From: Nitrospinota bacterium
GTDB taxonomy: Bacteria > 2-12-FULL-45-22 > JACOWJ01
Reading direction: 5' to 3'
NCBI GenBank assembly: GCA_016176845.1
Contig: JACOWJ010000001.1
Span: forward strand, 1 to 33,022
Length of the DNA stretch: 33,022 bases
This document shows, piece after piece, positions 3,587 to 32,716 of the stretch. Positions within the stretch are counted from its first letter, which is position 1, and each line of letters opens with the position of its first letter. The notes beneath the pieces are model-generated. The model had not been told where the DNA came from. It saw only the letters and a list, made by a program, of their open reading frames with translations, and did not search any database. The translations under genes and the position numbers were made by a program.

Positions 3587-3610
3587 CCCTCTGCCTCCTC
3601 CTGGCAAAGC

Positions 3611-3818
3611 CAGAATTGGAAATTGAAGATTGGAAATTGGAAATTTTACCGTGAAAATGCCAAAGTCTATCGAAGGTCCATTTTTATGCCCGGGGACGGT
3701 CAACTTTGCTTGGGCATGTCGGTTTCCAATGAAAGAAATGCCTTGTCTTTGTCCCTTTCAATTTCCAATTTCCATTTTACAATTTGCAATTTGCAATTTT
3801 CCATTCTCGCGAAGCGAG
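3611..3818. repeat. Family A repeat pair (copies 2 and 3)
   Basis: At 3611-3648 the sequence is iterated words AATTGGAAATTGAAGATTGG. At 3757-3805 the complementary words (CAATTTCCAATTTCC, then TTTGCAATTTGCAATTTTCC) appear, followed by the perfect hairpin CTCGC-GAA-GCGAG (3806-3818), one base from the stop codon of the M48 gene. The facing arms make this either one about 200-bp inverted structure or two opposed copies. It separates the M48 gene from the SDR remnant. Confidence 0.75.
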
Positions 3819-4767: not shown

Positions 4768-4912
4768 AAGGACTGGCGACCAAATAACTTTCCCATGGTC
4801 GAATGGGATAATAGGTTTTAAGTTTTAGGTTTTAGGTTTTAGGGCTTAAAACCTAAAACCTAAAACTTTCTGCAGGGAACCAAATGGGCAAGTTATTTAG
4901 TCCACGATCCTA
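4768..4912. repeat. Family B MITE-like element, copy 2 (most complete)
   Basis: This copy has both ends. The left end AGGACTGGCGACCAAATAAC continues CTTTCCCAT. The right end, read in reverse complement, is AGGATCGTGGACTAAATAAC and continues TTGCCCAT, giving imperfect terminal inverted repeats of roughly 28 bp. Between them is a palindrome of GGTTTTAAGTTTTAGG words. About 145 bp in all, with no coding capacity. It occupies the gap between recA and the M48 gene (4654-4929); the rest of that gap shows no gene. Confidence 0.8.
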
Positions 4913-16816: not shown

Positions 16817-16845
16817 TTGACTTAAAGGAAAAATTGGCATAGAGT
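16817..16845 (+). promoter_or_regulatory. Sigma-70-like promoter for the glutaryl-CoA dehydrogenase gene
   Basis: TTGACT (16817-16822) and TAGAGT (16840-16845) are separated by 17 bp and lie about 60 bp before the ATG of the plus-strand gene. With the minus-strand promoter it makes a divergent control region of about 220 bp. Confidence 0.55.
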
Positions 16846-16903
16846 GAGCTATACCTTTTTTATTTTTTTTATTATTTTTACCGCGCGTATAGAAGGAGAT
16901 CCC

Positions 16904-18070: not shown

Positions 18071-18154
18071 TGCACTTGACTCGGCTTCCTGACTGTTGTT
18101 GCAGCCCTGATTTGAGGCGATATCCCCCTCGAAGCTCCTGAGGAGAGGACCTTT

Positions 18155-18220
18155 CAAAGTGCAAAATGAAAAATGAAAAGTGCAAAGTGATTCCTATTTT
18201 GCATTTTGCACTTTGCAATG
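18155..18220. repeat. Inverted repeat of TGCAAAATGAAA words
   Basis: AAAGTGCAAAATGAAAAATG (then AAAAGTGCAAAGTG) faces TTTTGCATTTTGCACTTTGCA. The words recall family A copy 1. It lies in the about 235-bp gap between gcdH and the SDR gene; I see nothing else there. Confidence 0.7.
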
Positions 18221-18307
18221 GCCTGAGCCCTCCAGTCAAGCCGGCCGAGGAAAGGCGGCCTTAGCGCCTGGCGATTTCGTCGGGCCGCTTAAAATTGCGG
18301 GAAAGAT

Positions 18308-19051
18308 ATGTCAGAGCTCACGGGAAGGATCGCTTTAGTTACGGGGGGTGGCTCGGGCATCGGTCGGGCCACCGCGCTGGTCTTCGCCCGAGCCGGGGCG
18401 GATCTCATCATCAACGATATCTCCCCAGAGAGGGCCGAAGGGGTGGCCTCGGAGGTGGCCGACCTGGGGCGCAAGGCCCTGGCCATCCCAGCGGATGTGG
18501 CCGACCTGGGAGCCGTGGAGGCGATGGCCGGCCAGGCCCTGAAATCCTTCGGCAAGGTGGACATCGTGGTGAACAATGCCGGGATCGGGGTCGAGGTCCC
18601 CTTCCACAAAATGAGCAAGGAGGAATGGGAGCGCATGTTCGCCGTCCATGTGGGCGGCACCTTCCATTGTACCCGCAGCTTACTCCCGCAGATGATGGAA
18701 CGGCGGTGGGGGCGGATCATCAGCATCAGCTCGGTGGCGGGGCTGATGGGGGAGGTGGGACTGGTCCACTATTCGGCGGCCAAGGCGGCCATCCTCGGCT
18801 TTACCAAGGCCCTGGCCCGGGAGATGGCCTCGTACGGGATCACGGTGAATGCCATTGCCCCCGGCCTGATCGATACCCCCTTGGCCCGGTCCATCCAGCC
18901 CGAGCTCTGGCAGAAGTTCGTCAGCGCATCCCCGGTGGGACATGAGGGAAAGCCGGAGGACATCGCCCATGCCTGTGCCTATTTGGCCTCCGAGGGAGCC
19001 AGCTTCGTGACGGGACAGGTCCTCAGCCCCAATGGGGGCATCTGGATGTGA
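18308..19051 (+). CDS. Short-chain dehydrogenase/reductase, FabG-like
   Basis: The 247-residue classical SDR has TGGGSGIG (12-19) for NAD(P), an Asp after the second strand (IINDIS), NNAG (89-92), catalytic Ser 141/142, Tyr 155 and Lys 159 (HYSAAKA), and APGLIDTPLA with the C-terminal TGQVLSPNGG. All catalytic residues are present, unlike the SDR remnant at 3263-3586. It is probably a 3-hydroxyacyl-CoA or similar alcohol dehydrogenase; the substrate cannot be told from the sequence. It sits downstream of gcdH and 24 bp before the CooC-like ATPase. Confidence 0.85.
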   Translation: MSELTGRIALVTGGGSGIGRATALVFARAGADLIINDISPERAEGVASEVADLGRKALAIPADVADLGAVEAMAGQALKSFGKVDIVVNNAGIGVEVPFHKMSKEEWERMFAVHVGGTFHCTRSLLPQMMERRWGRIISISSVAGLMGEVGLVHYSAAKAAILGFTKALAREMASYGITVNAIAPGLIDTPLARSIQPELWQKFVSASPVGHEGKPEDIAHACAYLASEGASFVTGQVLSPNGGIWM

Positions 19052-19075
19052 CAAAATATTTGAGGGATTGAAATT

Positions 19076-19882
19076 ATGGAGGAAAGGTCACCCAAAAACA
19101 GGTTGGTCGCGGTCTGCGGGAAGGGAGGCACGGGGAAGACGGCCTTCATCTCCATCATGACCAAGATCCTTACGCAGCATGATGACCAGAGGATCCTGGT
19201 GATCGACGCCGACCCGGCCATGAGCCTGGCCAACGCCCTGGGAGTCCAAATTACCAAGACCATCGGCGAAATCCGCGAGGAGATCATCAAGAGCGCCGCC
19301 CGGTTCGGGGATGACGAGGAGGAAAAGCTCCGGATCGTAAACACCCTGGACTACATGGTCCTGGAGGCCCTGGCCGAGAAAAGCAAATTCGGCCTGCTGG
19401 TGATGGGCCGCCCGGACGCGGTCGGCTGCTTTTGCCCGGTCAATGACCTGCTGCGGGATGCCATCGAAACCCTTTCGAAGAACTTCGACGTCACCCTGAT
19501 CGACGGGGAGGCGGGCATCGAGCAGATCCATCGGCAGGTGGTCCGGGTGGTCGATACCCCGGTGATTCTGACGGACACCTCCTCCCGGGGGTTGCAGACC
19601 GCCGCCCTGATCAAGAAGATCGTGGAGAGCAAGAAGCTCATCCGGTGCAAGCGGCTGGGCATGGTGGTCAACCGGGTCCGGGGGGATGAAGAGATGGTCC
19701 GGGGGTTCGCCGAGAAGGTCGGGGTGGAGATCCTGGGTTATATCCCCGAGGACGAGAACATCTCCCACTACGACCTGAGGGGTCAGCCGCTGACGGAGCT
19801 GCCGGATGATTCCTCCAGCGTCGTGGCCATCCGGCAGGTCTCCCAGAAGCTGGGGTTGCTTGACGGGGAAGCGGAGGGATGA
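19076..19882 (+). CDS. CooC-like P-loop ATPase (MinD/ParA superfamily)
   Basis: The 268-residue protein has a deviant Walker A, GKGGTGKT (15-22), with the signature Lys 16, a switch with VIDADP (42-47), and GCFCPVND with a Cys-x-Cys pair (118 and 120). CooC uses that CxC pair for metal and dimer formation during nickel insertion into CO dehydrogenase. No carbon monoxide dehydrogenase or other nickel enzyme is in this window, so the partner is unknown. Related ATPases also serve acetyl-CoA synthase and some corrinoid enzymes. GAGGGA lies eight bases before the ATG. The gene follows the SDR and precedes the qhp locus after 255 bp. Confidence 0.8.
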   Translation: MEERSPKNRLVAVCGKGGTGKTAFISIMTKILTQHDDQRILVIDADPAMSLANALGVQITKTIGEIREEIIKSAARFGDDEEEKLRIVNTLDYMVLEALAEKSKFGLLVMGRPDAVGCFCPVNDLLRDAIETLSKNFDVTLIDGEAGIEQIHRQVVRVVDTPVILTDTSSRGLQTAALIKKIVESKKLIRCKRLGMVVNRVRGDEEMVRGFAEKVGVEILGYIPEDENISHYDLRGQPLTELPDDSSSVVAIRQVSQKLGLLDGEAEG

Positions 19883-20137: not shown

Positions 20138-21769
20138 ATGATACCACGAGAGTGGACAAAGGCATTGGCGGCTGTGGCAACCCTCTCCTTCCTCTTAGGA
20201 CTTAGCCCCCCAGTCTTAGCTGCTCCAGCAGGCCTTCCGAAGAATCCCCTCTTTGCCCTGAAGTGCGGTATCTGCCATCGCCCACAAAAGGACGGCCGCG
20301 TCCGCCGGCTGGAGTCGATGCGGAAGAGCCCCGAAGGGTGGGAGAGATCGATCCAGCGGATGGAGCGGCTCCAGCGGGTCAAGCTCCAGCCGGGGGAGAG
20401 GGAGGCCCTGGTCAAGCTCCTCTGCCAAAGCCTCACCCTGGCCCCCGCGGAGAGCCGGAAGGTCTTTTACGCGCTAGCCGGGAAGGACCCCCGAGAAGAG
20501 ATCCCCCCTGGGAAGGAAAAACTGAAAGAGGCCTGTACGCGATGCCATAGCTACGCCACCATCGCGGCCCAACGGCGAACGCGGGAGGAGTGGCTCAAGC
20601 TGAAGTCCCTCCACTTATCCCTCTATCCTGCCCTGGTCTATCAATTGAGGGAGATCGACTGGCCGATGGTGGCCGACGAGATCCTGAAATCCCTGGCCAA
20701 GACGTTTCCCTTCGAAACCCCGGAGTGGAAGGCCTGGAAGAAGCGCCCGGCCCAGAGCTCGGCGGGGAGGCTGGCGGGCTCCTGGCGGGTCATCGGATCC
20801 CAACCTGGCAGGGGAAGCTACGTAGGCTCTCTGGAGCTCAAGCCCTCCGGCGATGGCGACTACGAGGTAAAAAGGACGGTTCTCTACGAAGGAGGCCAGG
20901 AGGAGAGCTGGACGGGAAAGGGGACGCTTTATGGGGGGTATGCCCTTAGGGCTTATTTCTCCACGTCAGAAGGAAGGACCAAGGGGACCTTCAGCTTCTT
21001 CCCAGGCGGGAAGACGATGGAGGGGAGTTGGCTCTGCATGGATAAGCTCTACCTTGCCGGGGATGAGATCGGCCACCGGTGGGGAACGGGGGAGGCGAAG
21101 GTCTTGAGCCTCTCGCCCGGGGCACTGAAGCAGGGAAGCTCCCACGTCCATCTCGCCCTCCAGGGGATCCACCTCCCCACCTCCCCACGGCCCGCCGACC
21201 TCCATCTGGGCCCGGGGATCGCGATCTCCAAGATCCTGAAGGCCAGCCCGGGGCAGCTCGTCGTGGAGGTGGAGGTCCAGGGGAACGCCCCGATCGGAGA
21301 GCGCCATGTGACGGTGGGGAAGGCCTCGGGAAAGGGGATTCTGGTGGTCTACGACCGGGTGGACTACCTGCAGGTTGTTCCCGAGTTCGGCCTGGCCCGG
21401 GTGGGCGGCCAGGCTAACCCGGCCAAGGCGGAACAGTTCGAGGCCATCGCCTATAACCGGGGCCCTGACGGGACCCCCCACACCCGGGATGACCTCCGGC
21501 TGGGGCCGGTCAAGGCCCACTGGTCGGTGGAGGAGTATTTTTATTCCCCAGAGGACCGGGACGTGGAGTACGTGGGGAAGATCGACCAGAACGGCCTCTT
21601 CCTGCCCAGCGCGGAGGGTCCCAATCCCCAGCGGCCCTTTAAAACCAATAACGTGGGCAACGTTTGGGTCGTAGCCACCTACCGGCCGGACGGGACAGAC
21701 CAGGAGCTCAAGGCCAAGGCCTTCCTTTTGGTGACCGTCCAGCTCTTCTTGCAAGAGACCATGAATTAA
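20138..21769 (+). CDS. qhpA: Quinohemoprotein amine dehydrogenase, diheme alpha subunit
   Basis: The 543-residue protein has a signal peptide (about 1-29, ending VLAAPA) and two c-type heme sites, CGICH (43-47) and CTRCH (133-137), in its N-terminal cytochrome part. The rest is a set of beta domains as in the QHNDH alpha subunit. The enzyme oxidises primary amines to aldehydes and ammonia in the periplasm; electrons go from the CTQ quinone of the gamma subunit through these hemes to an external acceptor. AAGGAG precedes the ATG. The gene is first in the qhpA-D-C-B order known from Paracoccus and Pseudomonas. The only unusual feature is the repeat-rich spacing to qhpD. Confidence 0.9.
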   Translation: MIPREWTKALAAVATLSFLLGLSPPVLAAPAGLPKNPLFALKCGICHRPQKDGRVRRLESMRKSPEGWERSIQRMERLQRVKLQPGEREALVKLLCQSLTLAPAESRKVFYALAGKDPREEIPPGKEKLKEACTRCHSYATIAAQRRTREEWLKLKSLHLSLYPALVYQLREIDWPMVADEILKSLAKTFPFETPEWKAWKKRPAQSSAGRLAGSWRVIGSQPGRGSYVGSLELKPSGDGDYEVKRTVLYEGGQEESWTGKGTLYGGYALRAYFSTSEGRTKGTFSFFPGGKTMEGSWLCMDKLYLAGDEIGHRWGTGEAKVLSLSPGALKQGSSHVHLALQGIHLPTSPRPADLHLGPGIAISKILKASPGQLVVEVEVQGNAPIGERHVTVGKASGKGILVVYDRVDYLQVVPEFGLARVGGQANPAKAEQFEAIAYNRGPDGTPHTRDDLRLGPVKAHWSVEEYFYSPEDRDVEYVGKIDQNGLFLPSAEGPNPQRPFKTNNVGNVWVVATYRPDGTDQELKAKAFLLVTVQLFLQETMN

Positions 21770-21777
21770 GGAGGAAT

Positions 21778-21846
21778 AGGGATTCAGGAGTCGGGAATCT
21801 GCATGAAAAGGGAAAATTCCAACTCCTGAATTCGCCTCCTGACCCC
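21778..21846. repeat. Inverted repeat between qhpA and qhpD
   Basis: GATTCAGGAGTCGGGAAT faces ATTCCAACTCCTGAATTC, with CCTCCTGACCCC at the right end. It lies just before the qhpD ATG, which has no clear ribosome-binding site, and may therefore affect its translation. Confidence 0.6.
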
Positions 21847-21853
21847 TTTTCGA

Positions 21854-23470
21854 ATGAGCCGATATCAGCTGAAAGAGGCCCATGAGCTCGTTGTGGACGG
21901 GAAGCGCTACCTCTTTGGGGTGAGCACGGGCGCCATCTTGGGGATGGATGCGCCTGCCGCGCGGGTGGTGGATTTTTTAAAGAACCGGCCGGGCGTTTCC
22001 GTTCAAGAGCTGGCCGCTCACCTGGAGTCGGAAGGCGAGACGGGAGGGACCCAAGAGGCCTTAGAGGAGTTGGTGGCCCTGGAGGTGGTGGGGAGCGGAG
22101 GAGCCGGGGAGTGGAGGGGCGAAGGGGCGGAGGAGCCTAAGGGCAAGGGAAAAATTGCTTCCTTGTCCGCCTGTACCCCTGCACCCTCACACCCTTGTAC
22201 CTCTTCATCCCAGCCCCGTCTGCCGTTTCCAGTCCGGAGCCTGGTCTGCCACATTGCTCGGGACTGCAACCTCCGCTGCGCTTACTGCTACGCGGAAGGC
22301 GGTTCCTACGGCCAAGAGAGGGCCCTCATGGACCCCGAGATGACCTGTCGCAGCGTAGATTTCCTCTTGCGACATTCCGGGGGGAACCGGCGCATCAGCT
22401 TCACCTTCTTTGGGGGAGAGCCCTTGCTCAACCCGCAGGCCCTCCGGGCGGCGGTGCAATACGGAAGGGCTCAGGAGGAGCGATGGGGCAAGGAGATCGA
22501 TTTCTCCCTCACGACCAACGCGACCCTGCTCTCCGAGGAGACGGTCCGCTTCCTGAGCGAGAATCGGATCGGGGTGACGGTGAGCCTGGATGGCCCCGCC
22601 GCGATAAACGATCGGATGCGGACTTACCCGGATGGAAGGGGCTCCTATCAGTCCGTGCTGCCCCAGGTCCGCCTCCTGTTGGATCATCACCGCACCCGGC
22701 CGGTGGCGGCCCGGGTGACGGTAACTCGAGGTGTGGGAGATCTGGGAGAGATCTTTGGCCACCTGCGTGGCCTGGGATTCTCCCAGGTGGGCTTTTGCCC
22801 CGTGTCCACCCGCGATGCGCGCTACGCCCTCTCCCTTGAAGACCTTTCCTCCTTTCTGGAGCAACTCTGCCACCTGGCCTGGCGCTGCATTTCAGTAAGG
22901 GTACCCGAGGCCAAGGGGTTGCAAGAGCCTTCCTTCCAGGGGCTTGAGAGTCTCGAGTGGGCTGGGAAAGATCTCCCTGCGTCCGATTCCCATCCAACCC
23001 GAAGCGGCTATAACCCGGAAGAGGCCGCCGGAAGGCCTCTTCCACTCTCCAATCTTGCTAATTTATTGCGCGAACTGCACCGGGGAGAGCGGCGGCCCTA
23101 TCCCTGCGGGGCAGGCCTGGGCCTGCTGGGCGTGGGCGTCGACGGTGAGATTTACCCCTGTCATCGCTTCGCGGGCTCTCCCGACCTCAGCCTGGGGCGG
23201 ATCGAGCAGGGGTTGGACCTCGGCCGGCAGACCGCCTTCTTTCAGCGGGTCCATTCCACCAAACGGGCGGAGAAGTGCTTGGAGTGCTGGATCCGGTATC
23301 TTTGCGCAGGAGGATGCTACTTCGAGTCCTATGTGCGCCACGGCGACCCCTTCGCTCCCAACCTCGATTATTGCCGATGGTTGGCGGAGTGGATCGAAGA
23401 GGGGCTGAGGCTCTACGTCGCCCTGGCCGAGAATCGACCCGGGATTCTCATGGGACTGCTGGAGGATTGA
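21854..23470 (+). CDS. qhpD: QHNDH maturation radical SAM/SPASM protein
   Basis: QhpD forms the Cys-to-Asp/Glu thioether cross-links of the gamma subunit in the cytoplasm. Seen here: CNLRCAYC with cysteines 138, 142 and 145 for the radical SAM cluster, FFGGEP (185-190) for SAM binding, and a SPASM region with cysteines at about 418, 436, 475, 478, 484, 488 and 507 for auxiliary clusters. Length is 538 residues. Residues about 82-122 (Gly/Glu/Lys-rich, then Ser/Pro/Thr-rich) are encoded by a repeat-like, G-rich then C-rich stretch that looks like an in-frame insertion before the radical SAM domain. The first 80 residues form a PqqD/RRE-like domain that could bind the QhpC leader; this is inferred. 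Confidence 0.88.
   Translation: MSRYQLKEAHELVVDGKRYLFGVSTGAILGMDAPAARVVDFLKNRPGVSVQELAAHLESEGETGGTQEALEELVALEVVGSGGAGEWRGEGAEEPKGKGKIASLSACTPAPSHPCTSSSQPRLPFPVRSLVCHIARDCNLRCAYCYAEGGSYGQERALMDPEMTCRSVDFLLRHSGGNRRISFTFFGGEPLLNPQALRAAVQYGRAQEERWGKEIDFSLTTNATLLSEETVRFLSENRIGVTVSLDGPAAINDRMRTYPDGRGSYQSVLPQVRLLLDHHRTRPVAARVTVTRGVGDLGEIFGHLRGLGFSQVGFCPVSTRDARYALSLEDLSSFLEQLCHLAWRCISVRVPEAKGLQEPSFQGLESLEWAGKDLPASDSHPTRSGYNPEEAAGRPLPLSNLANLLRELHRGERRPYPCGAGLGLLGVGVDGEIYPCHRFAGSPDLSLGRIEQGLDLGRQTAFFQRVHSTKRAEKCLECWIRYLCAGGCYFESYVRHGDPFAPNLDYCRWLAEWIEEGLRLYVALAENRPGILMGLLED
22097..22219 (+). repeat. In-frame repeat-like insertion in qhpD
   Basis: The left side is G-rich (words GGAGGGGCGAAGGGGCGGAG) and the right side C-rich (words CCTGTACCCCTGCACCCTC, CACACCCTTGTACC), facing each other like the arms of an imperfect inverted repeat. 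It adds about 40 low-complexity residues between the N-terminal domain and the radical SAM core without breaking the frame. Confidence 0.55.
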
Positions 23471-23507
23471 AACGCAGCCTTTCGGAAAGACCTTTGAACC
23501 CAACTTG

Positions 23508-23528
23508 ATCGAATAGGAATTTCCTTTT
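23508..23528 (+). promoter_or_regulatory. ATAGGAATTTCCTTTT box upstream of qhpC
   Basis: Second copy of the box found before qhpA, with one difference in 21 bases. It lies about 115 bp before the qhpC ATG, in the 172-bp gap after qhpD. Confidence 0.35.
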
Positions 23529-23546
23529 TAGACAGGATTTACGGGA

Positions 23547-23615
23547 AAGTTTTAAGTTTCAGGTTTTAAGTGTTAAGCAAGAAACCTAAAACTTAACACC
23601 TAAAACTTAAATCTA
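23547..23615. repeat. Family B-like palindrome, copy 3 (divergent)
   Basis: GTTTTAAGTTTCAGGTTTTA faces AAACCTAAAACTTAACACC and AAAACTTAAATC. The central words match family B, but the conserved end sequences (CCAAATAACTTTCCC) are absent. It lies between qhpD and qhpC. Confidence 0.65.
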
Positions 23616-23642
23616 GGCCGCATCACTCGAGGAGACGAAGCC

Positions 23643-23966
23643 ATGAAGCACGTCAAGGCGATTAACCTCAGGGCCCAGGCCCTCGAGGCGCGGGCCAAAG
23701 GGGAGCTGCCGGACATCTACGCCTTGCAGATGCAGCTTCCCATGAGCTGCTCCACCGTCTTCGATCCCGGGTGGGAGGTCGATGGGATGTTCGGGCTGGC
23801 CGGCCTGTGCCAGCCGATGGAGAACGACCTCTACGGCTGCTCGGCGGATTGCTGGTGGCCGGCTCAGGTGCCCGACGAGCTGGTCAATTACCCAGGTTGG
23901 AGCGACCAATGTTCCGCCGCCGTCCGAGACTGGCAGAAGATCAAGTTCATCCAAGGAGGTCCCTAA
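23643..23966 (+). CDS. qhpC: QHNDH gamma subunit, CTQ precursor peptide
   Basis: This 107-residue protein carries the tryptophylquinone. Every modified residue known from the Paracoccus gamma subunit is present at the same spacing: Cys36-Glu45, Cys56-Asp62 and Cys70-Asp78 for the three thioether cross-links, and Cys66-Trp72 for the CTQ cofactor, in CQPMENDLYGCSADCWWPAQ. The first about 29 residues (MKHVKAINLRAQALEARAKG on) correspond to the leader that in the known system is removed by QhpE after cross-linking and export by QhpF. There is no Sec signal. An extra Cys (90) lies outside the known set. GAGGAG lies before the ATG, and the stop abuts the qhpB ATG. Confidence 0.92.
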   Translation: MKHVKAINLRAQALEARAKGELPDIYALQMQLPMSCSTVFDPGWEVDGMFGLAGLCQPMENDLYGCSADCWWPAQVPDELVNYPGWSDQCSAAVRDWQKIKFIQGGP

Positions 23967-25034
23967 ATGAAAAAGCGCATTTCGACCAGGCTCCTCGGGA
24001 TCGTCCTTGGGGGGGCATGGGCCCTTTTCCTGCCGCTATCCGGGTTGGCGCAGGCGGGCCAGGAATGGATCTACATCACCACCCTTCCTAATAAGATCGT
24101 CGTCCTCGATGGAGAAAAGGACGAGATCGTCCGGGAGATCCCGCTGCGGGGTACCCCTTACTACCTGACCGCGACCCGGGACGGTCGGAAGGTCTTCGTC
24201 ATCACTGGCAGACGGCAATACATCGACATCATCGATGCCGAACAGGGCAAGGTGGTGGATTCCATCACCCTCTCCCAGGAAAAATCCAAGGCCCGATTCT
24301 ACGGGCTGGCGGCAAGCCCCGAGGGGGACAGGCTTTACATCAACGTACTGACTTCCCGGGAGGAGCTGGACGAGCTGGTGGCGGAGCCCCCCTACGTGGC
24401 GATGGTGGACCTCAAGACGAAGAAGGTCGTGGGGACCATCCCCGTCCCCTATGGGATCGGGGCCCTCTTTCCCCTGAGCCAGGGGCCACAGGTCTACGCC
24501 TTCGGCCGCGATCTTTACACCCTCGATCCCGTACAACGGAAGATCGTGAGAACCACCGGCCTGGCTCACCCTCAGATCGGCGGGGAGGGTCCAATGAATG
24601 CCCTGCCGTTCTGGACGCACTACGTGAAGGATGGGCTGTTCAGCTCTCCCTACGTGGAAGGGGGAGACCCGGTGACCCACGCTCCCAAGATCGGCCTCCT
24701 GCTCTTCGATACGGTCAACGGGAAGCTCGACAAGATCGAGCTCGGCCCCCCCATCCCCATCTTCTCGGCGGTGGTCTCCCCGGATCGCCAGACCGCTTAT
24801 GGGGTCTTCACCCAGCTCACGGTGGTGGACCTGAAGGAGAAGAGGATAACCAAGGCCGTGCCCCTGCAAGCCTCTTACTATACCCTGGATGTAAGCAGTA
24901 ACGGGAAGAAGCTTTACATCTCCGGGGCGGCCCCCGAGGTGGTGGTGATGGACGCTGGCTCCTTCCAGGTACTGAAGACCATCCCTCTTCCGGGGAATAC
25001 CTTTGACCTGCGGGTGATCCCCCGAGAGTTTTAA
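23967..25034 (+). CDS. qhpB: QHNDH beta subunit (seven-bladed propeller)
   Basis: The 355-residue protein has a signal peptide (about 1-31, ending GLAQA) and YVTN-like propeller repeats with units such as VVLDGEKDEIVREIPL, IDIIDAEQGKVVDSITL, VAMVDLKTKKVVGTIPV and VVVMDAGSFQVLKTIPLPGN. In the known enzyme the beta subunit packs against the gamma subunit and helps form the active site. It starts with the base after the qhpC stop, with GGAGGT inside qhpC. The downstream gap of about 400 bp ends the qhpADCB block. Confidence 0.9.
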   Translation: MKKRISTRLLGIVLGGAWALFLPLSGLAQAGQEWIYITTLPNKIVVLDGEKDEIVREIPLRGTPYYLTATRDGRKVFVITGRRQYIDIIDAEQGKVVDSITLSQEKSKARFYGLAASPEGDRLYINVLTSREELDELVAEPPYVAMVDLKTKKVVGTIPVPYGIGALFPLSQGPQVYAFGRDLYTLDPVQRKIVRTTGLAHPQIGGEGPMNALPFWTHYVKDGLFSSPYVEGGDPVTHAPKIGLLLFDTVNGKLDKIELGPPIPIFSAVVSPDRQTAYGVFTQLTVVDLKEKRITKAVPLQASYYTLDVSSNGKKLYISGAAPEVVVMDAGSFQVLKTIPLPGNTFDLRVIPREF

Positions 25035-25108
25035 CTATTAACCAGCTTCATACTCAAAGTGGTTGAATGTGGAGCATTTGGGATCATGAGCGGAGGTGAG
25101 TCGGGGTA

Positions 25109-25417
25109 ATGATAGTACGAGGTGTCCTCTTAGCGGTGCTAAGAGTGCTATTCTGGGGGATCTACTGGTATCACGGGTATGTCTTTTGGAGCCGTCTCCT
25201 AAAAGACATACTTCACTGCCTGTTAGTACGATGTGGCAGGGTTATCGGTAGGTTCCAGAACAAAGCAAGAAGCATACTCAAAGCCCACTTCCTTGACACC
25301 CGGAGTTGTAGTGGTTTTGAGGGATGCTTCCGATCGGGTGAGACTGTCCACCCTGGGCCCGAGATACTTATAAATAAGTCAATCCGGGAGCGAATGACCC
25401 TATTTGTACCACATTGA
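25109..25417 (+). CDS. Hypothetical small protein between qhpB and the acyl-CoA dehydrogenases
   Basis: I do not recognise this 102-residue frame. Its first 26 residues (VLLAVLRVLFWGIYWYHGYV) are hydrophobic and could form one membrane segment; the remainder is basic with several Cys. GGAGGTGA lies nine bases before the ATG. The composition of 25035-25437 is less GC-rich than the qhp genes, and the word CATACTCAAAG occurs at both 25052 and 25271. It may be degenerate DNA at a join between two blocks and not a gene. Confidence 0.3.
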   Translation: MIVRGVLLAVLRVLFWGIYWYHGYVFWSRLLKDILHCLLVRCGRVIGRFQNKARSILKAHFLDTRSCSGFEGCFRSGETVHPGPEILINKSIRERMTLFVPH

Positions 25418-25437
25418 GTGCAAAGAAAGGAACAGAT

Positions 25438-26622
25438 ATGGATTTCCGATTGACCCCAGCGCAACAGGCCCTGAAAGAGGAGTTCGAAGCGTTCTTCCAA
25501 GAGGAGGCCCAAAGGGCCCCCGAGGGATGGATCGGAGGGATGTTTGGCATCTTTGAGAGCGAGGCAAATTGGGCTTACCACCGCTCCGTGGCCGACAGGT
25601 TGTCCAAGAAAGGCTGGCTCTCCCTGCCATGGCCCAAAAAGTACGGGGGGCAGGAACATAGCTACATCGAGCAGCTGATTTTCAATGAGGTGCGGGGATA
25701 TTATCGGGTCCCGGGGGTCGATCTGTGGGGTCCTCAGATTGTCGCTCCCAGTATCTTGGAACATGGGAGCGAGGAGCTGAAACAGGAATGGCTGCCCCGG
25801 ATCGCCAATGCGGAGATCAACTGGTGTCAGGGGTGGAGCGAGCCCAATTCCGGCTCGGATCTGGCCTCTCTCATGACCCGAGCGGTAGAGGATGGGGATG
25901 ATTTTGTGATCAATGGGCAGAAGATCTGGACGACCGGAGGCCACAAGGCTGACCACATCTTCTTCTTGGCTCGCACCGATCCCAGCGTGCCCAAACATAA
26001 AGGCATCACCTATTTCGTCAGTCCCATTAAAGAGGGCGTCACCGTCAGACCTTTGCTCTTCATGCACGGAAAACATGAGTATAACGAGGTCTTCTTCGAT
26101 AATTTTAGAGTGCCCAAGACGAATGTCGTGGGGAAAGTCAACCAGGGCTGGTATGTCACCATGGCCGGGATCAATTTCGAGCGGTCCATGATCGGGACGG
26201 TGTCTGAGCTGCAGCGAGATCTGGAGGATCTGGTGGATCTCTGCAAACGGACCCAACGGAATGGGCGATCCCTCTATGAAGATCCCTTGATTCGCCAGAA
26301 GATGGCGCAGTTGGACACCGAGCTCGAGGCAACCCGGCAGTGGGCCTATTATGTCGCATGGGTTCAGAGCAAAAAACAGTCCGCAGCTCCCGAGGCCTCT
26401 GCGGCCAAGTATTTCTCCAGTGAGATGACGGTTCGTTTTGCCAACACCGCCTTGGAGATCCTCGGGCTGTATGGCCCATTGAAGGAAGGATCGAAGTGGG
26501 CGAGCCTTCATGGCAAATTTGAGGATTTGTGCCAGGCCAGCCTGGGCGGAACCGTCGCCGGGGGGACGACGGAGATCCAGAAAAACATTATTGCGTGGAT
26601 GGGGTTAAAATTGCCCAGGTAG
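25438..26622 (+). CDS. Acyl-CoA dehydrogenase, PimC-like large subunit
   Basis: The 394-residue acyl-CoA dehydrogenase has WCQGWSEPNSGSDLASL (FAD/substrate region), GQKIWTTGGHKADH, NQGWYVTMAGINFERS and the C-terminal GGTVAGGTTEIQKNIIA. It resembles the large partner of two-gene acyl-CoA dehydrogenases such as PimC/PimD or the FadE pairs of actinobacteria. The next gene encodes the expected smaller partner, so an alpha-beta heterotetramer is likely. The substrate is unknown. AAAGGAAC precedes the ATG at 25438; a TTG eight codons earlier is also open. Codon use is slightly less GC-rich than in the flanking qhp genes. Confidence 0.82.
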   Translation: MDFRLTPAQQALKEEFEAFFQEEAQRAPEGWIGGMFGIFESEANWAYHRSVADRLSKKGWLSLPWPKKYGGQEHSYIEQLIFNEVRGYYRVPGVDLWGPQIVAPSILEHGSEELKQEWLPRIANAEINWCQGWSEPNSGSDLASLMTRAVEDGDDFVINGQKIWTTGGHKADHIFFLARTDPSVPKHKGITYFVSPIKEGVTVRPLLFMHGKHEYNEVFFDNFRVPKTNVVGKVNQGWYVTMAGINFERSMIGTVSELQRDLEDLVDLCKRTQRNGRSLYEDPLIRQKMAQLDTELEATRQWAYYVAWVQSKKQSAAPEASAAKYFSSEMTVRFANTALEILGLYGPLKEGSKWASLHGKFEDLCQASLGGTVAGGTTEIQKNIIAWMGLKLPR

Positions 26623-26708
26623 AGCGAAATGAGCTCTTTGTCCTTAGCCTTATTTGCGATCATGTCTAAAGATCAAAAGGCCGGAGAGAGAATAAACGGA
26701 GAGGGAAA

Positions 26709-27839
26709 ATGGACCTTGACTTCACCGAGGAGCAAGAGGCTTTAAAAAAGACGGCAAGAGACTTCATGAAGAAGGATTTCCCCAATACATTGGTCAGGGA
26801 GCTCGAAGAGGACCCAACGGGATTTCGGGCCGAGATCTGGGGAAAGATTGCTGAGATGGGCTGGCTCTCTGTCATCATCCCAGAAGAATACGAGGGCATC
26901 GGCGGCAGCCTTATGGACCTGGTCGTCCTTTTCGAGGAGATGGGCCGGGCCTGTTTCATCGCGCCATTCTTCTCCACTGTGATCTGTACATTGCCCATCG
27001 TATCTGCAGGCTCCGAAGCGCAGAAGAAAGAGATCCTACCCAAAATATCCAATGGAGAGCTGGTCCTCAGCCTGGCATTGACGGAACCCAGCGCCACCTA
27101 TGAGGCAGCAGGAATTTCTACGAGTGCCGTAGCGGATCAAGAGGATTATGTCATCAACGGAACCAAATTGTTTATTCACGATGCTCAAGTGGCCCATTAT
27201 TTTCTCTGCGCGACCCGGACCCGTATGGATGGACCTCCGGAAGAGGGGATCACGCTCTTTCTCGTGGATGCCAAGAGCCCCGGAATTAAAATCACGCCGC
27301 TTTTAACCATCTCCGACGATAAACAAAACGAGGTGGTTTTCGAGAAGGTGAGAGTGCCCAAGAAGAATATGCTGGGCCCACTGAATCAGGGTTTCCCCCT
27401 CATCCAACATCTCCTGAAGCATGCGATGATGGCCAAATGCGCTGAGATGGTCGGAGCTGCGGATTGGACGATCGAGAATTGCACCGCCTACGCAAAGGAG
27501 AGGGTGCAGTATGGCAGCCTCATCGGCAGCTATGGAATTATCCAGCATTATCTCGCCGAGATGTGGACCGAGATTGGGATCGCCAAACGGTTTACCTACT
27601 ATGCGGCATGGCGGTTAGACCAAGGGCTCCCTTGCGATAAGGAGGTCTCCATGGCCAAGGCCTTCGTCAGCGAGGTGTACCGGCGTTGGACCCGCATGGG
27701 AGTTCAGATCTTCGGCGGCATCGGGACGACCCGAGAGCATGATATGGGGCTATACTATCGCCGGGCCAGGCAGGCCGCTCTCCTGTTTGGGGATCCGGAC
27801 ACCCTGCGGGAGAAGGTGGCGCAAGAGATGGGGCGTTAA
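26709..27839 (+). CDS. Acyl-CoA dehydrogenase, PimD-like small subunit
   Basis: The 376-residue partner of the preceding gene starts MDLDFTEEQEALKKTARDFM, with LALTEPSATYEAAGI, VRVPKKNMLGPLNQGF, AKERVQYGSLIGSYGIIQH and MGVQIFGGIGTTREHDMGLY. The FGGIGTTREH region is the adenine/FAD dimer contact of this family. It lies 86 bp after its partner and 24-33 bp before the UbiV-like gene, so it is read on the same transcript. Why a fatty or dicarboxylic acyl-CoA dehydrogenase pair sits between the QHNDH structural and maturation genes is unknown; it might oxidise the acid derived from the amine substrate. Confidence 0.82.
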   Translation: MDLDFTEEQEALKKTARDFMKKDFPNTLVRELEEDPTGFRAEIWGKIAEMGWLSVIIPEEYEGIGGSLMDLVVLFEEMGRACFIAPFFSTVICTLPIVSAGSEAQKKEILPKISNGELVLSLALTEPSATYEAAGISTSAVADQEDYVINGTKLFIHDAQVAHYFLCATRTRMDGPPEEGITLFLVDAKSPGIKITPLLTISDDKQNEVVFEKVRVPKKNMLGPLNQGFPLIQHLLKHAMMAKCAEMVGAADWTIENCTAYAKERVQYGSLIGSYGIIQHYLAEMWTEIGIAKRFTYYAAWRLDQGLPCDKEVSMAKAFVSEVYRRWTRMGVQIFGGIGTTREHDMGLYYRRARQAALLFGDPDTLREKVAQEMGR

Positions 27840-27872
27840 ATCCGGTATTTATCTTGTCAAACTGTGCGCTCC

Positions 27873-28835
27873 ATGAGGAATGGAGATCTCGTGGAAGCCA
27901 GAGGGAACCTGGAGGAGAAGGGAGACAACCTGGAATGGGCTTTGTGTCTTTCCCAGGAGGCACCTGAGAGCATTTCCTGGGAGAAATTGAAACGATCCCA
28001 GGTCGAAGAGCAGATCAATCCCGGGAAGCCTCCCTTCTCCTTTCTATGGGACGATGAAGCGCTCCCCACGGCCATTTGCTTCTCTCGGCTCTACCTGGGA
28101 GACGAATTCTGTCAGCACCTGATTCCTTCCCAGGCCCAGGTCGATCGTGCCCTCCAGTTCGCTCAAGCCGAAGGGCTGGCCCTCTCTCTGGTCACCCCGT
28201 ACGTGACCGATGAGGGGATCGATCGGCTGAGGGCGCTCTTTTCTTATTTGGCCCTCCACTGCCCCGACGCCGAGGTGATCGTGAGCGACTGGGGAACGCT
28301 CCGGCTGCTGCGGAGGGAATACCCCTCGTTGGTCCCCGTGCTCGGCCGCATCCTGTGCAAGATGACACGCGATCTCTCCCTCGCTCCCCCAGAGAGGCGC
28401 CCGGCCGTGCCGCCCGCGGCCTCGAGGGCCCTCCGGCGCCCGGCCTTGAGCCTTCCTCTCTACCAGCGCTTCCTGGCAGGGCTCGGCATCCAAAGGGCCG
28501 AGCTCGACCTCCCGCCCCAGGGGCTAGACATGACAGGCATAGGGCTTAAGGTCTCCCTCCATCTGCCTTACGGCTACGTGACTACGGGGAGGGCCTGTCC
28601 GATCGGCTCCCTGGATCGGCCCAAGAGAGAGAAATTTCGCCCCATGGACCATTGCCCGGGCCCCTGTCAGCAGGTTGCAGTTGAACTTCTCCCCTCTGCG
28701 TCAGTCAGGCTATTCTATCGCGGAAATACCGTATTCTATCGGTACAGTCAGGAGATGGTGCGGGAGGCATTGGCGCTGGCCAGAGCGGAAAAGGTGAATC
28801 GGGTCGTCCTTCATCCCTCCCCAGAGCCAAAATAG
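27873..28835 (+). CDS. U32-family protein, UbiV-like (4 Cys Fe-S type)
   Basis: The first about 65 residues are not conserved; the rest (from AICFSRLYLGDEFCQ) fits the U32 fold as in UbiV. Counting from a GTG at 27864, four cysteines sit at 83, 245, 264 and 268 (DEFC, GRACPIG, HCPGPC). The spacing resembles the four [4Fe-4S] ligands of E. coli UbiV (39, 180, 193, 197), including the final C-x3-C. The end has LFYRGNTVFYRYS. Characterised UbiU/UbiV, TrhP and RlhA are O2-independent hydroxylation proteins. The gene lies just after the acyl-CoA dehydrogenase pair and before a UbiU-like gene. I use the ATG at 27873. Its job in the qhp locus is inferred. Confidence 0.7.
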   Translation: MRNGDLVEARGNLEEKGDNLEWALCLSQEAPESISWEKLKRSQVEEQINPGKPPFSFLWDDEALPTAICFSRLYLGDEFCQHLIPSQAQVDRALQFAQAEGLALSLVTPYVTDEGIDRLRALFSYLALHCPDAEVIVSDWGTLRLLRREYPSLVPVLGRILCKMTRDLSLAPPERRPAVPPAASRALRRPALSLPLYQRFLAGLGIQRAELDLPPQGLDMTGIGLKVSLHLPYGYVTTGRACPIGSLDRPKREKFRPMDHCPGPCQQVAVELLPSASVRLFYRGNTVFYRYSQEMVREALALARAEKVNRVVLHPSPEPK

Positions 28836-28844
28836 GGGCGCCCT

Positions 28845-28876
28845 CCTCCTCAAGGGGGAAAGGAAGGGATGGGGGT
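28845..28876. repeat. REP-like CCTCAAGGGGG word
   Basis: CCTCCTCCTCAAGGGGGAAA followed by GGAAGGGATGGGGGTA resembles the dispersed element seen again at 32731-32765 (ACTTGGGGGAGAGGGCTGGG). It lies just after the UbiV-like gene. Confidence 0.5.
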
Positions 28877-28902
28877 AGGTCCGCAGACTTTTCGGATAAA
28901 CT

Positions 28903-29013
28903 TTAAGGAATGGTGACCGAATAACTTTCCCATGGTCGAATGGGATAATAGGTTTTAAGTTTTAGGTTTTAGGTTTTAGGGCTTAAAACTTAAAACCTAA
29001 AACCTAAAACTTT
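28903..29013. repeat. Family B MITE-like element, copy 4, right end missing
   Basis: The left end TTAAGGAATGGTGACCGAAT continues AACTTTCCCATGGTCGAATG, as in copies 1 and 2, and the central palindrome of GGTTTTAAGTTTTAGG words is complete. The right terminal part (ATTTAGTCCACGATCC) is absent. The element runs straight into the coding sequence of the UbiU-like gene at GCCGACGAG. It therefore marks a deletion join. Confidence 0.75.
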
Positions 29014-29991
29014 GCCGACGAGTTTTACTGCGGATGGATCCCCGCGGAATGGATATCCAAATACGGCGCCGCTTTCTGGTTAAACCGGAGGGACCCTCGT
29101 CGTGGGAACCTCCTGACCATTCAATCCCTGGCGGAGATTACCCGAAGAGCGCGGTTTTATGACATCCCGGTCTTCCTGACGGTGAACGCCCCCTACTATG
29201 CCCCGGAACAGCATCCCGACCTGATCGGCCTGGTGGAGCGGGCGATTGATCTCGGAGTGAGCGGCTTCATTGTGGCGGATGTGGGGCTGCTGCTCGCCCT
29301 GCAGGATCACGGGATGGAAGCAACCCTGCACCTGAGCAGCGTCGGGAGTTGCCTGAACGGGGAGGCGCTTGGGTTTTACCGCGAGCTGGGAGTCCAGCGG
29401 GTCATCCTGCCCCGAAGCTTGAGCCTGAAGGAGATTGCGGGAATCGCTGCTTCCAGGAAGTCCATCGGAGATGTGGAGCTGGAGGCCTTCGCCTTGAACG
29501 ATGGCTGTGCCTTCGAGGAAGGGCTCTGCCAGACCAGCCACGCCCATGGCGGGGCGTTCTGCCAGAGGGACTGGAAATACCGCTTCTTTTTCTCTCAAGA
29601 TGGAACGGAGCTGCCGGCCGATGCGATCGGGCCGCTGGAAGAACACCGGCAGGACCTTCGGGAATGGATCTGGTACCTGGGCGGCTGTGGCCCCTCCCTC
29701 TCCCCGCGCGGGATTCCCAATGGCCCCTGCGGGCTCTGCGCCGTCCCGGACCTGAAGGGTATGGGAATCGATGTCCTGAAGATCGCGGGACGCCAGGCAT
29801 CTCCCTTAAGGAAGCTGGCCAGTCTCCAACTGCTCCGGGCCATCGTGGAGCTAACCCTGCAGGGCAGAGGGAAAAGAGAGATCCGGGTGGCAGCCCGGCG
29901 CTTTCGGGACACCAAGGAGCTTTGCCAATCGGGCTACATGTGTTATTATCTGGAACAGGAAGGAAAGCCTCAAATCGCTCCAAGCTCGTAA
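29008..29991 (+). CDS. U32-family protein, UbiU-like, 5' end lost
   Basis: The frame opens after a stop inside the family B element and reads ADEFYCGWIPAEWISKYGAA, the usual U32 start minus its first about 20 residues. Later come ATLHLSSVGSCLNG, LGVQRVILPRSLSLKEIAGI, the Cys block NDGCAFEEGLCQ with GGAFCQRDWKYR, and CGLCAVPDL before DVLKIAGRQ. C-x6-C, then a Cys before xWKY, then a Cys before the KIxGR strand match the [4Fe-4S] ligands of UbiU in order. The only ATG/GTG/TTG start is a GTG at 29182, which would drop about 58 conserved residues. It may be a pseudogene, use a rare start, or be a mis-assembly. It ends 17 bp before the ABC exporter gene. Confidence 0.7.
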   Translation, partial: NFADEFYCGWIPAEWISKYGAAFWLNRRDPRRGNLLTIQSLAEITRRARFYDIPVFLTVNAPYYAPEQHPDLIGLVERAIDLGVSGFIVADVGLLLALQDHGMEATLHLSSVGSCLNGEALGFYRELGVQRVILPRSLSLKEIAGIAASRKSIGDVELEAFALNDGCAFEEGLCQTSHAHGGAFCQRDWKYRFFFSQDGTELPADAIGPLEEHRQDLREWIWYLGGCGPSLSPRGIPNGPCGLCAVPDLKGMGIDVLKIAGRQASPLRKLASLQLLRAIVELTLQGRGKREIRVAARRFRDTKELCQSGYMCYYLEQEGKPQIAPSS

Positions 29992-30008
29992 CTCAAAACT
30001 GACCGATC

Positions 30009-31961
30009 ATGCCACTTTCCTGCGAAGTCCGGAAGACCTTATCCTATCTGCTCCCTTATCGGTACCGCATCCTGGCGGTCCTGGGCCTGTCGCTCCTTTC
30101 CGCCCTCCTGAGTCTGGTCGCTCCTCTCCTGGCCAAGTTCGCCCTGGATGAGGTCTTCCCTAGCCGCCGACAGGGGCTGCTCTGGGGGCTGGCCGCCCTC
30201 GCCCTGACCCTCTTCCTCCTGCTCTACCTTCTGGGGGCCCTGCACCGCTACCTCCACGCGCAGGTGACCTCCCAGGTCCTGGCTGACATGCGCCTCAGCC
30301 TCTACCGGCACCTGCAAGGGCTCTCTCCCCGCTTCTATTCCCGGACCAAGGTGGGGGAGATCCTCTCTCGGATCAACGGCGACCTGGCCGAGGTCCAGGG
30401 CATCGTCACCGATGGCCTGCTCAACCTGACGACCCAGCTTCTGACCCTGGTGGGGGCGGTCGGCTTCCTGCTCTACTTAAACCCTCGCCTCTTCCTGATC
30501 AGCGCTTCCCTTCTGCCCCTGGGCGCCCTGTCCCTCAAGAGGCTGCGGCCCCGCGTCCCCCAGGCAGCCCGGCAGATCCGGGAGATCCACGCCCAGATGG
30601 GCAGCCACCTGCTGGAGACCTTCACTGGGATTCGATGCGTCCAGGCTTACGGGAAGGAAGTCGAGGAGGCGCAGCGGCTGGAAGGCGAAAACCGGGCCCT
30701 CATCCGGGCCCTGCTGCGGCTCCAGGTCCTTCTCTCCCTCTCGGGGGGTGTTCCAGGGCTCCTATTCTCTCTGACCGCCCTGATCGCCACCGTCTACGGC
30801 GGCCATCTGGTGATGAAAGGGGAGATGACGTTGGGGGAGCTAGCGGCCTTCATCGCCTATCAGGGCCGGGCCTGGGCCCCCCTCCAGGGGCTGGTGGGGC
30901 TCCACCTGGCCCTCCAGCGGGCCCGGGCATCGCTTCAGAGGGTTTACGAGCTCTTCGACACCCGGCCGGAGATCGAGGAGGGCTTCGAGCGAAGCGTGCC
31001 AAGGCGTCCAGGCCAAAAAGCAGGGATCAGGGATCAGGGATCCGCAAAGACCATTTCCAACCCCTGGCAACTGACCCCTGACAACTGTCTTGGCCCTGCC
31101 TTGGCCGGAGATCTTTGGACCGATCGGAATCGAATCGAGCTCAAAGAGGTCTCCTTCAGCTATGAGCCGGGAGAGACCGTGCTCGCGGAGCTGAGCTTCG
31201 TCATCTCACGGGGAGGCACGCTGGCCATCGTGGGCCCCAGCGGGGCCGGGAAGAGCACTCTTTGCGACCTCCTCCTCCGATTCTTCGACCCCACTGCCGG
31301 CTCCATTGAGGTGGATGGACGGGATCTGCGCTCCCTTCCCCTCTCGGAATGGCGAGGCCAGCTGGCCCTGGCCGGGCAGGAAGACTTCCTCTTCCATGCC
31401 AGCATCGCGGAAAACATCGAGTACGGACGAAGTGGGGCAAGCTTCGAAGAGGTGGTGTCAGCCGCCCGGGCCGCCGCGATCCACGAGTTTATCTCCGGAC
31501 TTCCTCAAGGCTACGCCACGCCGGTGGGGGAGCGAGGGACCCGGCTCTCCGAGGGACAAAGGCAGCGGATCACGCTGGCCCGCGCCATTTTGCGAGATCC
31601 TCCCATCCTGATCCTGGACGAGGCCACCTCTTCCCTGGACCGGCCCACGGAGAAACAGATCCATGAAGCGCTCAGGGCCCTGAGGAGAGAGCGCACCACC
31701 ATCGTCATCACCCATCGCCTCTCCTCGATCCGGGAGGCCGATCAGATCCTGGTGCTTGACGGGGGTCGCATCGTCCAGAGGGGAAGGCATGAGGCCTTGC
31801 TCCGAGAAAAGGGGCTTTACCGAAGGATGGCTTGGGACGAGCAGAGGAGGCGGGCCGAGGAGGAAAGGGGAGAGACCCCCATTCCGATCGCGGAGCCACG
31901 CCCCACCCAATGGGAGGGAACCCCTTCGGGAATGGGTCCCCTGGTCGGAGGGGATCGATGA
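30009..31961 (+). CDS. qhpF: Peptide-type ABC exporter (QhpF-like)
   Basis: A 650-residue half-transporter with an N-terminal six-helix membrane domain (about 15-310) and a C-terminal ATPase: Walker A GPSGAGKST (409-417), Q-loop near 457, signature LSEGQ (513-517), Walker B ILILDE (533-538), and the switch His in ITHRLSS. In the known qhp system QhpF moves the cross-linked gamma subunit to the periplasm. Residues about 337-366 (KAGIRDQGSAKTISNPWQLT and on) come from a repeat-like insertion in the linker between the two domains. There is no N-terminal C39 peptidase, as expected when a separate protease does the cleavage. The stop overlaps the protease start (ATGA). Confidence 0.75.
   Translation: MPLSCEVRKTLSYLLPYRYRILAVLGLSLLSALLSLVAPLLAKFALDEVFPSRRQGLLWGLAALALTLFLLLYLLGALHRYLHAQVTSQVLADMRLSLYRHLQGLSPRFYSRTKVGEILSRINGDLAEVQGIVTDGLLNLTTQLLTLVGAVGFLLYLNPRLFLISASLLPLGALSLKRLRPRVPQAARQIREIHAQMGSHLLETFTGIRCVQAYGKEVEEAQRLEGENRALIRALLRLQVLLSLSGGVPGLLFSLTALIATVYGGHLVMKGEMTLGELAAFIAYQGRAWAPLQGLVGLHLALQRARASLQRVYELFDTRPEIEEGFERSVPRRPGQKAGIRDQGSAKTISNPWQLTPDNCLGPALAGDLWTDRNRIELKEVSFSYEPGETVLAELSFVISRGGTLAIVGPSGAGKSTLCDLLLRFFDPTAGSIEVDGRDLRSLPLSEWRGQLALAGQEDFLFHASIAENIEYGRSGASFEEVVSAARAAAIHEFISGLPQGYATPVGERGTRLSEGQRQRITLARAILRDPPILILDEATSSLDRPTEKQIHEALRALRRERTTIVITHRLSSIREADQILVLDGGRIVQRGRHEALLREKGLYRRMAWDEQRRRAEEERGETPIPIAEPRPTQWEGTPSGMGPLVGGDR
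31018..31095 (+). repeat. In-frame repeat-like insertion in the ABC exporter gene
   Basis: GGGATCAGGGATCAGGGATC (iterated GGGATCA) at the left and CAACTGACCCCTGACAACTG at the right form an element of the word-repeat style seen in the intergenic spaces. It adds about 28 residues between membrane domain and ATPase, keeping the frame. Confidence 0.6.
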
Positions 31962-32716
31962 AGCCGCTTTACACCGGCCAGGGGGTCAAAGTGGCCGTGA
32001 TCGACAGCGGCATCAATCCCTGGCACTCCCATGTAAGGGGCGTGGAGGGCGGGGTGCGGATTCGGGCCACGAAGGGCCCCCTGGCGCTGGAGCTCGACGA
32101 CCGGTATACCGATGATCTGGGCCATGGGACCGCGGTGGCCGGCGTGATCCGCCGCTGGGCGCCGGGATGCGAGCTTTACAGCGTAAGGGTGTTCGACCGG
32201 GCGCTCGTTACTTATCCTTCCGCCTTGATCGAGGGGATCGAATGGTCCCTGGCGGCAGGGATCCGGGTGATCAACCTCAGCCTGGGGACTTCCAATGAGG
32301 CCCACATCCCCTCCCTGCTGGCAGTATGCCAACGGGCCCTGGAGGCGGGAGCTGCTCTGATTGCTGCGGCCGAGACCCGAAACCGAGGGCGTTACCCGGC
32401 TGCCTTTCCCATCGTCTTGGGGGTGGCCGCCCAGGAGGATTGTCGGGAGGAGGAGTTGATCTACGTGGAGGGAGATCCCATTGAGTTTCGCGCCCTGGGA
32501 CAGCCCCTTCCGCTGCCCGGCCTTCCCCAAGGCCGGAACCTTCAAGGATGCAGCTTCGCCGCTGCCCGGGTTACCGGACGGTTGGCCACCCTCTTGGAGG
32601 CCTTCCCTTCCGCCGATCTCCCTCAGCTGCGGGCCCTCTTGATAAACCAGGCCGCCACCCGAAGTACAACTCTACGCAATAACCCCCCATTCCCCTTGGA
32701 GCACCCAAGCCCATGA
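31958..32716 (+). CDS. qhpE: Subtilisin-like serine protease (QhpE-like)
   Basis: A compact 252-residue S8 protease: Asp 16 in VAVIDSG, His 56 in GHGTAVAGV, Ser 199 in QGCSFAAARVTG. There is no signal peptide or propeptide, so it should act in the cytoplasm, as QhpE does when it removes the QhpC leader. The oxyanion-hole Asn, normally in AAGN, appears as Glu (AAAET, about 139), a notable change. The ATG at 31958 overlaps the exporter stop and has GGAGGGG upstream. The exporter-protease pair next to the QHNDH genes supports the assignment. What follows (32717-33022) holds a REP-like word and a possible transposase fragment. Confidence 0.75.
   Translation: MKPLYTGQGVKVAVIDSGINPWHSHVRGVEGGVRIRATKGPLALELDDRYTDDLGHGTAVAGVIRRWAPGCELYSVRVFDRALVTYPSALIEGIEWSLAAGIRVINLSLGTSNEAHIPSLLAVCQRALEAGAALIAAAETRNRGRYPAAFPIVLGVAAQEDCREEELIYVEGDPIEFRALGQPLPLPGLPQGRNLQGCSFAAARVTGRLATLLEAFPSADLPQLRALLINQAATRSTTLRNNPPFPLEHPSP

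Follow-up and report, generated by a model that had tools for sequence, protein, structure and literature searches.

A U32 protein pair of qhp operons as a candidate O2-independent tryptophan hydroxylase in place of QhpG

Two adjacent genes found in qhp operons, here called V and U, very probably encode an O2-independent peptidyl-tryptophan hydroxylase that takes the place of the flavoprotein QhpG. Tryptophylquinone cofactor formation is known as an O2-dependent process, and quinohemoprotein amine dehydrogenases nonetheless work in denitrifying anaerobes; the V-U pair would be a specific, testable answer to the question of how CTQ forms anaerobically. An earlier note, made from one 33,022-nucleotide stretch of DNA (the window; contig JACOWJ010000001.1 of the Nitrospinota assembly GCA_016176845.1), had proposed that a UbiU/UbiV-like U32 pair replaces QhpG. 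This proposal is supported by the complementarity of the pair with qhpG, by its operon slot, by its conserved residues and by both qhp loci of Aromatoleum aromaticum EbN1, although the support is genomic inference only and no biochemistry has been done.

The gene content described in that note (qhpA-D-C-B, two acyl-CoA dehydrogenases, UbiV-like and UbiU-like genes, an exporter and a protease) was borne out by family matches. All qhp and U32 pair genes of the window lie on one strand, and the features of the locus are as follows:

20138..21769, plus strand: qhpA, alpha subunit; TIGR03908, 468 bits, above the cut-off of 274
21854..23470, plus strand: qhpD; best NCBIfam match TIGR03906 (E 6e-124, 414 bits), under the cut-off of 453
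23643..23966, plus strand: qhpC, gamma subunit and CTQ precursor; NF037958, 137 bits, above the cut-off of 50
23967..25034, plus strand: qhpB-like gene, beta subunit (beta propeller); named from its position and best family TIGR03907 (E 9e-51, 173 bits), under the cut-off of 223
25414..26622, plus strand: acyl-CoA dehydrogenase (PF00441, PF02770, PF02771), inserted after qhpB and ahead of the U32 pair in the window genome
26709..27839, plus strand: second acyl-CoA dehydrogenase (PF00441, PF02770, PF02771)
27864..28835, plus strand: V, UbiV-like half of the U32 pair; named from alignment, cysteine pattern, AF2 fold match to 5D88 and a weak hhalign match to UbiV
28951..29011, no strand: inverted array of TTTTAGG heptamers, replacing the missing 5' end of the U gene
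29008..29991, plus strand (open frame; normal start absent): U, UbiU-like U32 protein; PF01136, hhalign match to UbiU and 5D88 fold match
30009..31961, plus strand: qhpF-like ABC exporter (PF00664 and PF00005), in the same slot as in relatives
31958..32716, plus strand (ORF from 31832): qhpE-like subtilisin protease; best family NF049966 (E 7e-48, 162.9 bits), cut-off 165

The QhpA translation carries two CxxCH haem sites, CGICH and CTRCH, and QhpD, the radical SAM/SPASM maturase that forms the QhpC thioethers, has a CNLRCAYC motif. Window QhpD, QhpB and QhpE each have the named family as their best match yet score under its cut-off, as divergent members would. The likely start of qhpE is the ATG at 31958, in an ATGA overlap with the qhpF stop codon, and the contig ends at 33022, 306 bases past qhpE. 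When aligned with the gamma subunits of 1JJU and 1JMX, window QhpC was observed to keep Cys36, Glu45, Cys56, Asp62, Cys66, Cys70, Trp72 and Asp78, so that all residues for three thioethers and CTQ are present. The window therefore resembles the qhp operon of Paracoccus and Pseudomonas in having homologues of qhpA, B, C, D, E and F with the CTQ and haem residues conserved, but differs from it in carrying V-U in place of qhpG and in the insertion of the two acyl-CoA dehydrogenases.

The apparent lack of QhpG on which the earlier note had remarked also stood: no QhpG was found in the window, and a QhpG profile search of the rest of the MAG gave no match above 23 bits. No haem-copper oxidase was found in the MAG either. 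Both absences are weak evidence, because the MAG (1.53 Mb in 61 contigs) is only 68% complete. The strand that encodes qhpA also carries, directly ahead of it, genes for an acyl-CoA dehydrogenase, an SDR and a CooC/NifH-like ATPase (16844-19882). Elsewhere in the window, a short-chain dehydrogenase fragment on the minus strand (3263-3703) consists of pieces matching SDR profile positions 1-43 and 189-235, its middle seemingly lost.

The UbiU-like gene claimed for the window is present, as its PF01136 match attests, but its 5' end is abnormal. Relatives of U begin with MKIVAPISRV...AGADEFYCG or a near variant, whereas the window frame opens only at NFADEFYCG and offers no ATG, GTG or TTG ahead of 29182; a normal start and about 25 N-terminal residues (MKIVAPISRV...AGA) found in all relatives are thus gone, and the heptamer array stands where they should be. 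Inverted TTTTAGG arrays also occur in the window at 2613-2662, 4816-4865 and 23550-23612, one of the arrays lying between qhpD and qhpC; the heptamer has 21 matches against 0.04 expected, mostly in intergenic DNA. The window U gene may be damaged, may use an unusual start or may be misassembled at the repeat. The case for the function of the U32 pair rests on the relatives.

U matched PF01136 with an E-value of 4e-32 (112 bits against a cut-off of 22.4) and aligned to UbiU over 269 columns (hhalign, 99.8%), but reached only 82 bits against the UbiU equivalog NF047963, under its cut-off of 440. V is very divergent: it had no Pfam match up to an E-value of 5 and no NCBIfam match, gave no score against the UbiV equivalog NF047965, and was linked to UbiV by hhalign only weakly (E 4e-4, probability 36%). 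For the AF2 models of both proteins, which are of moderate confidence (pLDDT 68-71), the best PDB match was the solved U32 protein 5D88. The assignment of V to U32 thus rests on this fold match, the weak hhalign result and the cysteine pattern described below. In the U32 tree, from which the rows TrhP_L121 and UbiU_L133 were disregarded as mis-extracted ORFs, the pair proteins and the canonical U32 proteins form separate clades, and the U and V halves of the tree branch similarly. With the U profile, canonical U32 proteins scored 62-102 bits, versus 411-593 for pair U of the same genomes, and in at least seven pair carriers, canonical UbiU/UbiV or other U32 genes exist apart from the pair. Judged by these sequence comparisons, the V-U pair resembles UbiU-UbiV in kind and is not a member of the UbiU/UbiV equivalogs.

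Residues invariant in 32 of 32 rows were Glu159, Cys167, Cys174, Cys185, Cys241, Cys244, Cys306 and Cys312 in U, and Cys83, Cys245, Cys264 and Cys268 in V (numbering of window V, 27864-28835). The U residues E159, C167 and C174 match, at identical spacing, E162, C170 and C177 of TrhP, which are essential there (PMC6599085). The cysteines of U form a CX6C, then a CX10C and, further on, a CX2C, while the UbiU pattern is CX6CX16CX38C, so that the spacings of the third and fourth putative Fe-S ligands differ from those of UbiU. In V, the arrangement CXnCX18CX3C corresponds to the UbiV pattern CXnCX12CX3C (PMC6747719) with a longer loop. A ligand role has not been shown for the cysteines of either protein, and Fe-S binding by V-U is inferred by analogy.

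These features place V-U beside several known systems. As in UbiU-UbiV, the O2-independent ubiquinone hydroxylase heterodimer of E. coli, a UbiU-like and a UbiV-like U32 gene are adjacent, the Glu and the CX6C that follows it are retained in U and the CXnC...CX3C in V, and the pair coexists with or replaces an O2-using flavin monooxygenase (QhpG here, UbiI/H/F there). Unlike UbiU-UbiV, the V-U proteins fall in separate clades, far under the equivalog cut-offs, and are tied to qhp operons; their expected substrate is a protein tryptophan, whereas that of UbiU-UbiV is a lipid quinone precursor. With TrhP and RlhA, which serve in prephenate-dependent hydroxylation of tRNA and rRNA, U shares the U32 domain and the Glu and two Cys at the same spacing. 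TrhP and RlhA are, unlike V-U, single proteins acting on RNA, and U, although it aligns well, has its own clade. TrhP and TrhO are a parallel case of an O2-free and an O2-dependent enzyme (PMC6599085).

Scanning for qhpC yielded 80 loci, for which gene maps were drawn with profiles. QhpG was identified by Pfam and by its match to PDB 7CTQ; among the ORFs tested, no NCBIfam QhpG model was matched. Genome-wide searches with QhpG and V profiles were combined with the qhpC searches. The earlier note would have been refuted by a U32 pair unique to the window genome, but a dedicated pair was observed in 29 of 60 surveyed qhpC+ genomes, and its carriers come from the lineage of the window itself, from the Acidobacteriota and from the Alpha-, Beta- and Gammaproteobacteria. 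In an even sample of 369 Gammaproteobacteria, V and qhpC occurred in the same two genomes and, among the matches listed, in no other. Among 151 Rhodocyclaceae (the Thauera family), V was present in 14 of 21 qhpC+ genomes versus 0 of 130 qhpC- genomes, again among the matches listed (Fisher 6e-15). Some weak matches may be missed in both counts, and some V proteins of the profile come from the surveyed genomes themselves; 17 V proteins were found de novo (in G076, G078-G081, G431 and 11 Rhodocyclaceae), and qhpC was present in all 17 genomes.

Presence of the pair was complementary to that of qhpG: of 58 scorable qhpC+ genomes, 21 had the pair only, 29 had qhpG only, eight had both and none had neither (Fisher p=2.6e-9). 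Here the partial 131-bit match in G071 and the 204-bit match in G072 were scored as QhpG, and a 132-bit QhpG-profile match in G561 was scored as a paralogue because matches of similar size also accompany true QhpG in other genomes. Two genomes were left out, namely G082, a Deltaproteobacteria MAG that is incomplete, and a member of the Bryobacterales (G077, locus L172) with a 60-bit flavoprotein after qhpB; when both were scored as having neither, p was still 1.1e-7. G077, with neither the pair nor a clear QhpG, counts against the reading that the pair replaces QhpG. The Fisher p-values are inflated, since the genomes are related and not independent. In the QhpD tree, the pair-only label must change nine times or more on supported branches, and an independent-pairs test found 3-5 pairs in support and none contrary (p 0.06-0.25, with few pairs). 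A qhpG elsewhere in the genome would also have told against replacement, yet in many pair-carrying genomes none was found anywhere, including the pair-only G514 and G602 with essentially complete single chromosomes.

The commonest gene orders are A-D-C-B-F-E-G (11 loci) and A-D-C-B-F-E-V-U (10 loci), by which V-U occupies the qhpG slot at the operon end, and V directly adjoins U in 32 of 32 loci examined. V-U thus shares with QhpG, the peptidyl tryptophan dihydroxylase (PDB 7CTQ), its operon and its slot after qhpE, and is presumed to share its reaction on crosslinked QhpC; QhpG, unlike V-U, is an unrelated FAD monooxygenase, and it is absent from the 21 pair-only genomes. The gamma subunits of pair-only genomes retain Trp43 and every thioether or CTQ crosslink residue. 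In two Colwelliaceae (a Litorilituus MAG from an oxygen-minimum zone and a Colwellia MAG), qhpG and the pair are adjacent on opposite strands. Two Blastocatellia loci (L174:8016-14401 and L176) have the order D-C-V-U-F-E without alpha and beta genes beside them. The same Blastocatellia have a separate A-D-C-B elsewhere in the genome, so D-C-V-U-F-E is a second cluster there.

One carrier (G566) was recognized as Aromatoleum aromaticum EbN1, its two plasmid contigs matching NC_006823 and NC_006824 (first 6 kb compared). EbN1 has two qhp loci with a V-U pair at each, of which one (L157) also has qhpG and the other (L158) has V-U in the qhpG slot. Schmitt et al. reportedly observed in 2019 that CTQ maturation in EbN1 did not require molecular oxygen. 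Judging by the title of their paper as cited in PMC11231019, two quinohemoprotein amine dehydrogenases of EbN1 initiate anaerobic aromatic amine degradation. QhpG is a FAD monooxygenase, and both oxygen atoms that it inserts come from O2 (PMC7876137); anoxic cells therefore need another enzyme, for which V-U is the obvious candidate. The U32 oxidases characterised so far have ubiquinone precursors and RNA as substrates (PMC11574389). No link between tryptophylquinone and U32 proteins was found in the literature searched, but subscription papers, including Schmitt et al. 2019, were outside its scope, and prior notice is possible.

Other roles for the pair were weighed against these data. On the strength of the 269-column alignment of U to UbiU and the UbiV cysteine pattern in V, the two genes could be taken for the usual UbiU/UbiV pair of anaerobic ubiquinone synthesis, lying beside qhp by chance. 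This explanation is barely tenable, however, given that at least seven carriers hold canonical UbiU/UbiV or other U32 genes separately and in other clades, that the score of U against NF047963 is far short of the cut-off and V has none, and that the pair is absent from qhpC- genomes among the matches listed; ordinary UbiUV and chance neighbours were rejected on the separate clades, the sub-cut-off scores and the tie to qhpC. Hardly better placed is the idea, suggested by the family name 'peptidase U32', that U and V are peptidases acting on the QhpC leader. Only the Pfam name speaks for it, whereas qhpE, the known leader protease, still accompanies the pair in most loci, the window's included, the gene that the pair replaces is qhpG and not qhpE, and the Fe-S type cysteines are invariant, and on these grounds a leader peptidase role was rejected as well.

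Less easily set aside, but still unlikely, is that the pair serves QHNDH maturation in low-oxygen bacteria at some other step, such as electron supply, Fe-S supply or oxidation of the hydroxylated tryptophan to the quinone, while an unrecognised enzyme performs the hydroxylation in pair-only genomes. Co-occurrence with qhpC alone does not fix the step, qhpG and the pair are found together in eight genomes, and conserved cysteines are more numerous in U than in UbiU. Against this, the complementarity is specifically with qhpG (0 of 58 genomes with neither) and the slot is shared with it, both pointing to the QhpG step, and hydroxylation of rings or bases is the reaction of every U32 oxidase characterised so far (PMC11574389). 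Hydroxylation of the tryptophan by V-U in place of QhpG is thus the reading that we prefer.

In a more specific form of this hydroxylase reading, which we hold to be likely but with less assurance, V-U represents a new subfamily of dedicated-heterodimer U32 oxidases that carries out both hydroxylations of a peptidyl tryptophan independently of O2, with oxygen from prephenate or water. The heterodimer, the reaction and its substrate are inferred by analogy with the systems above, as are the oxygen source and the independence of O2. In the preferred hydroxylase reading, QhpD would first form the Cys-to-Asp/Glu thioethers in QhpC, and V-U, as a heterodimeric iron-sulfur enzyme, would then place the oxygen atoms on the tryptophan that is to become the cofactor (Trp43 in Paracoccus, Trp72 in the window) without O2, the oxygen probably coming from prephenate, as is thought for other U32 oxidases. 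QhpF would export and QhpE would trim the modified gamma subunit; the quinone and the Cys-Trp bond would be completed, and the CTQ-bearing amine dehydrogenase would assemble in the periplasm. Prephenate is the likely donor because anaerobic ubiquinone hydroxylation draws its oxygen from prephenate (PMC11574389) and RNA hydroxylation requires it (PMC6599085).

If this is true, V-U would be the first of the U32 oxidases to have a protein as its substrate, extending the range of these enzymes beyond small molecules and RNA, and would be the missing enzyme of anaerobic tryptophylquinone formation. Bacteria would then hold QhpG, the pair or both, comparable to UbiIHF versus UbiUV in ubiquinone synthesis and TrhO versus TrhP in tRNA modification. 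QhpC would also provide a soluble protein substrate for studying the poorly understood U32 chemistry in vitro.

Two further observations concern the edges of this distribution. The qhp-type V was absent from plasmid records, where only a distant Roseburia homologue was found: on a plasmid of Roseburia sp. 831b (L145:7449-10137), a distant V-like hypothetical protein adjoins a U32 protein, with a heavy-metal P-type ATPase, but not qhp, nearby. Pairs of the U/V type may extend beyond qhp. In the Bryobacterales qhp loci L172 and L173, the gamma subunits have C-Y-W or C-F-W instead of C-W-W, and the flavoprotein directly after qhpB in L172 (10172-11236) is very divergent, with 60 bits to QhpG; these loci perhaps represent a third route to the cofactor.
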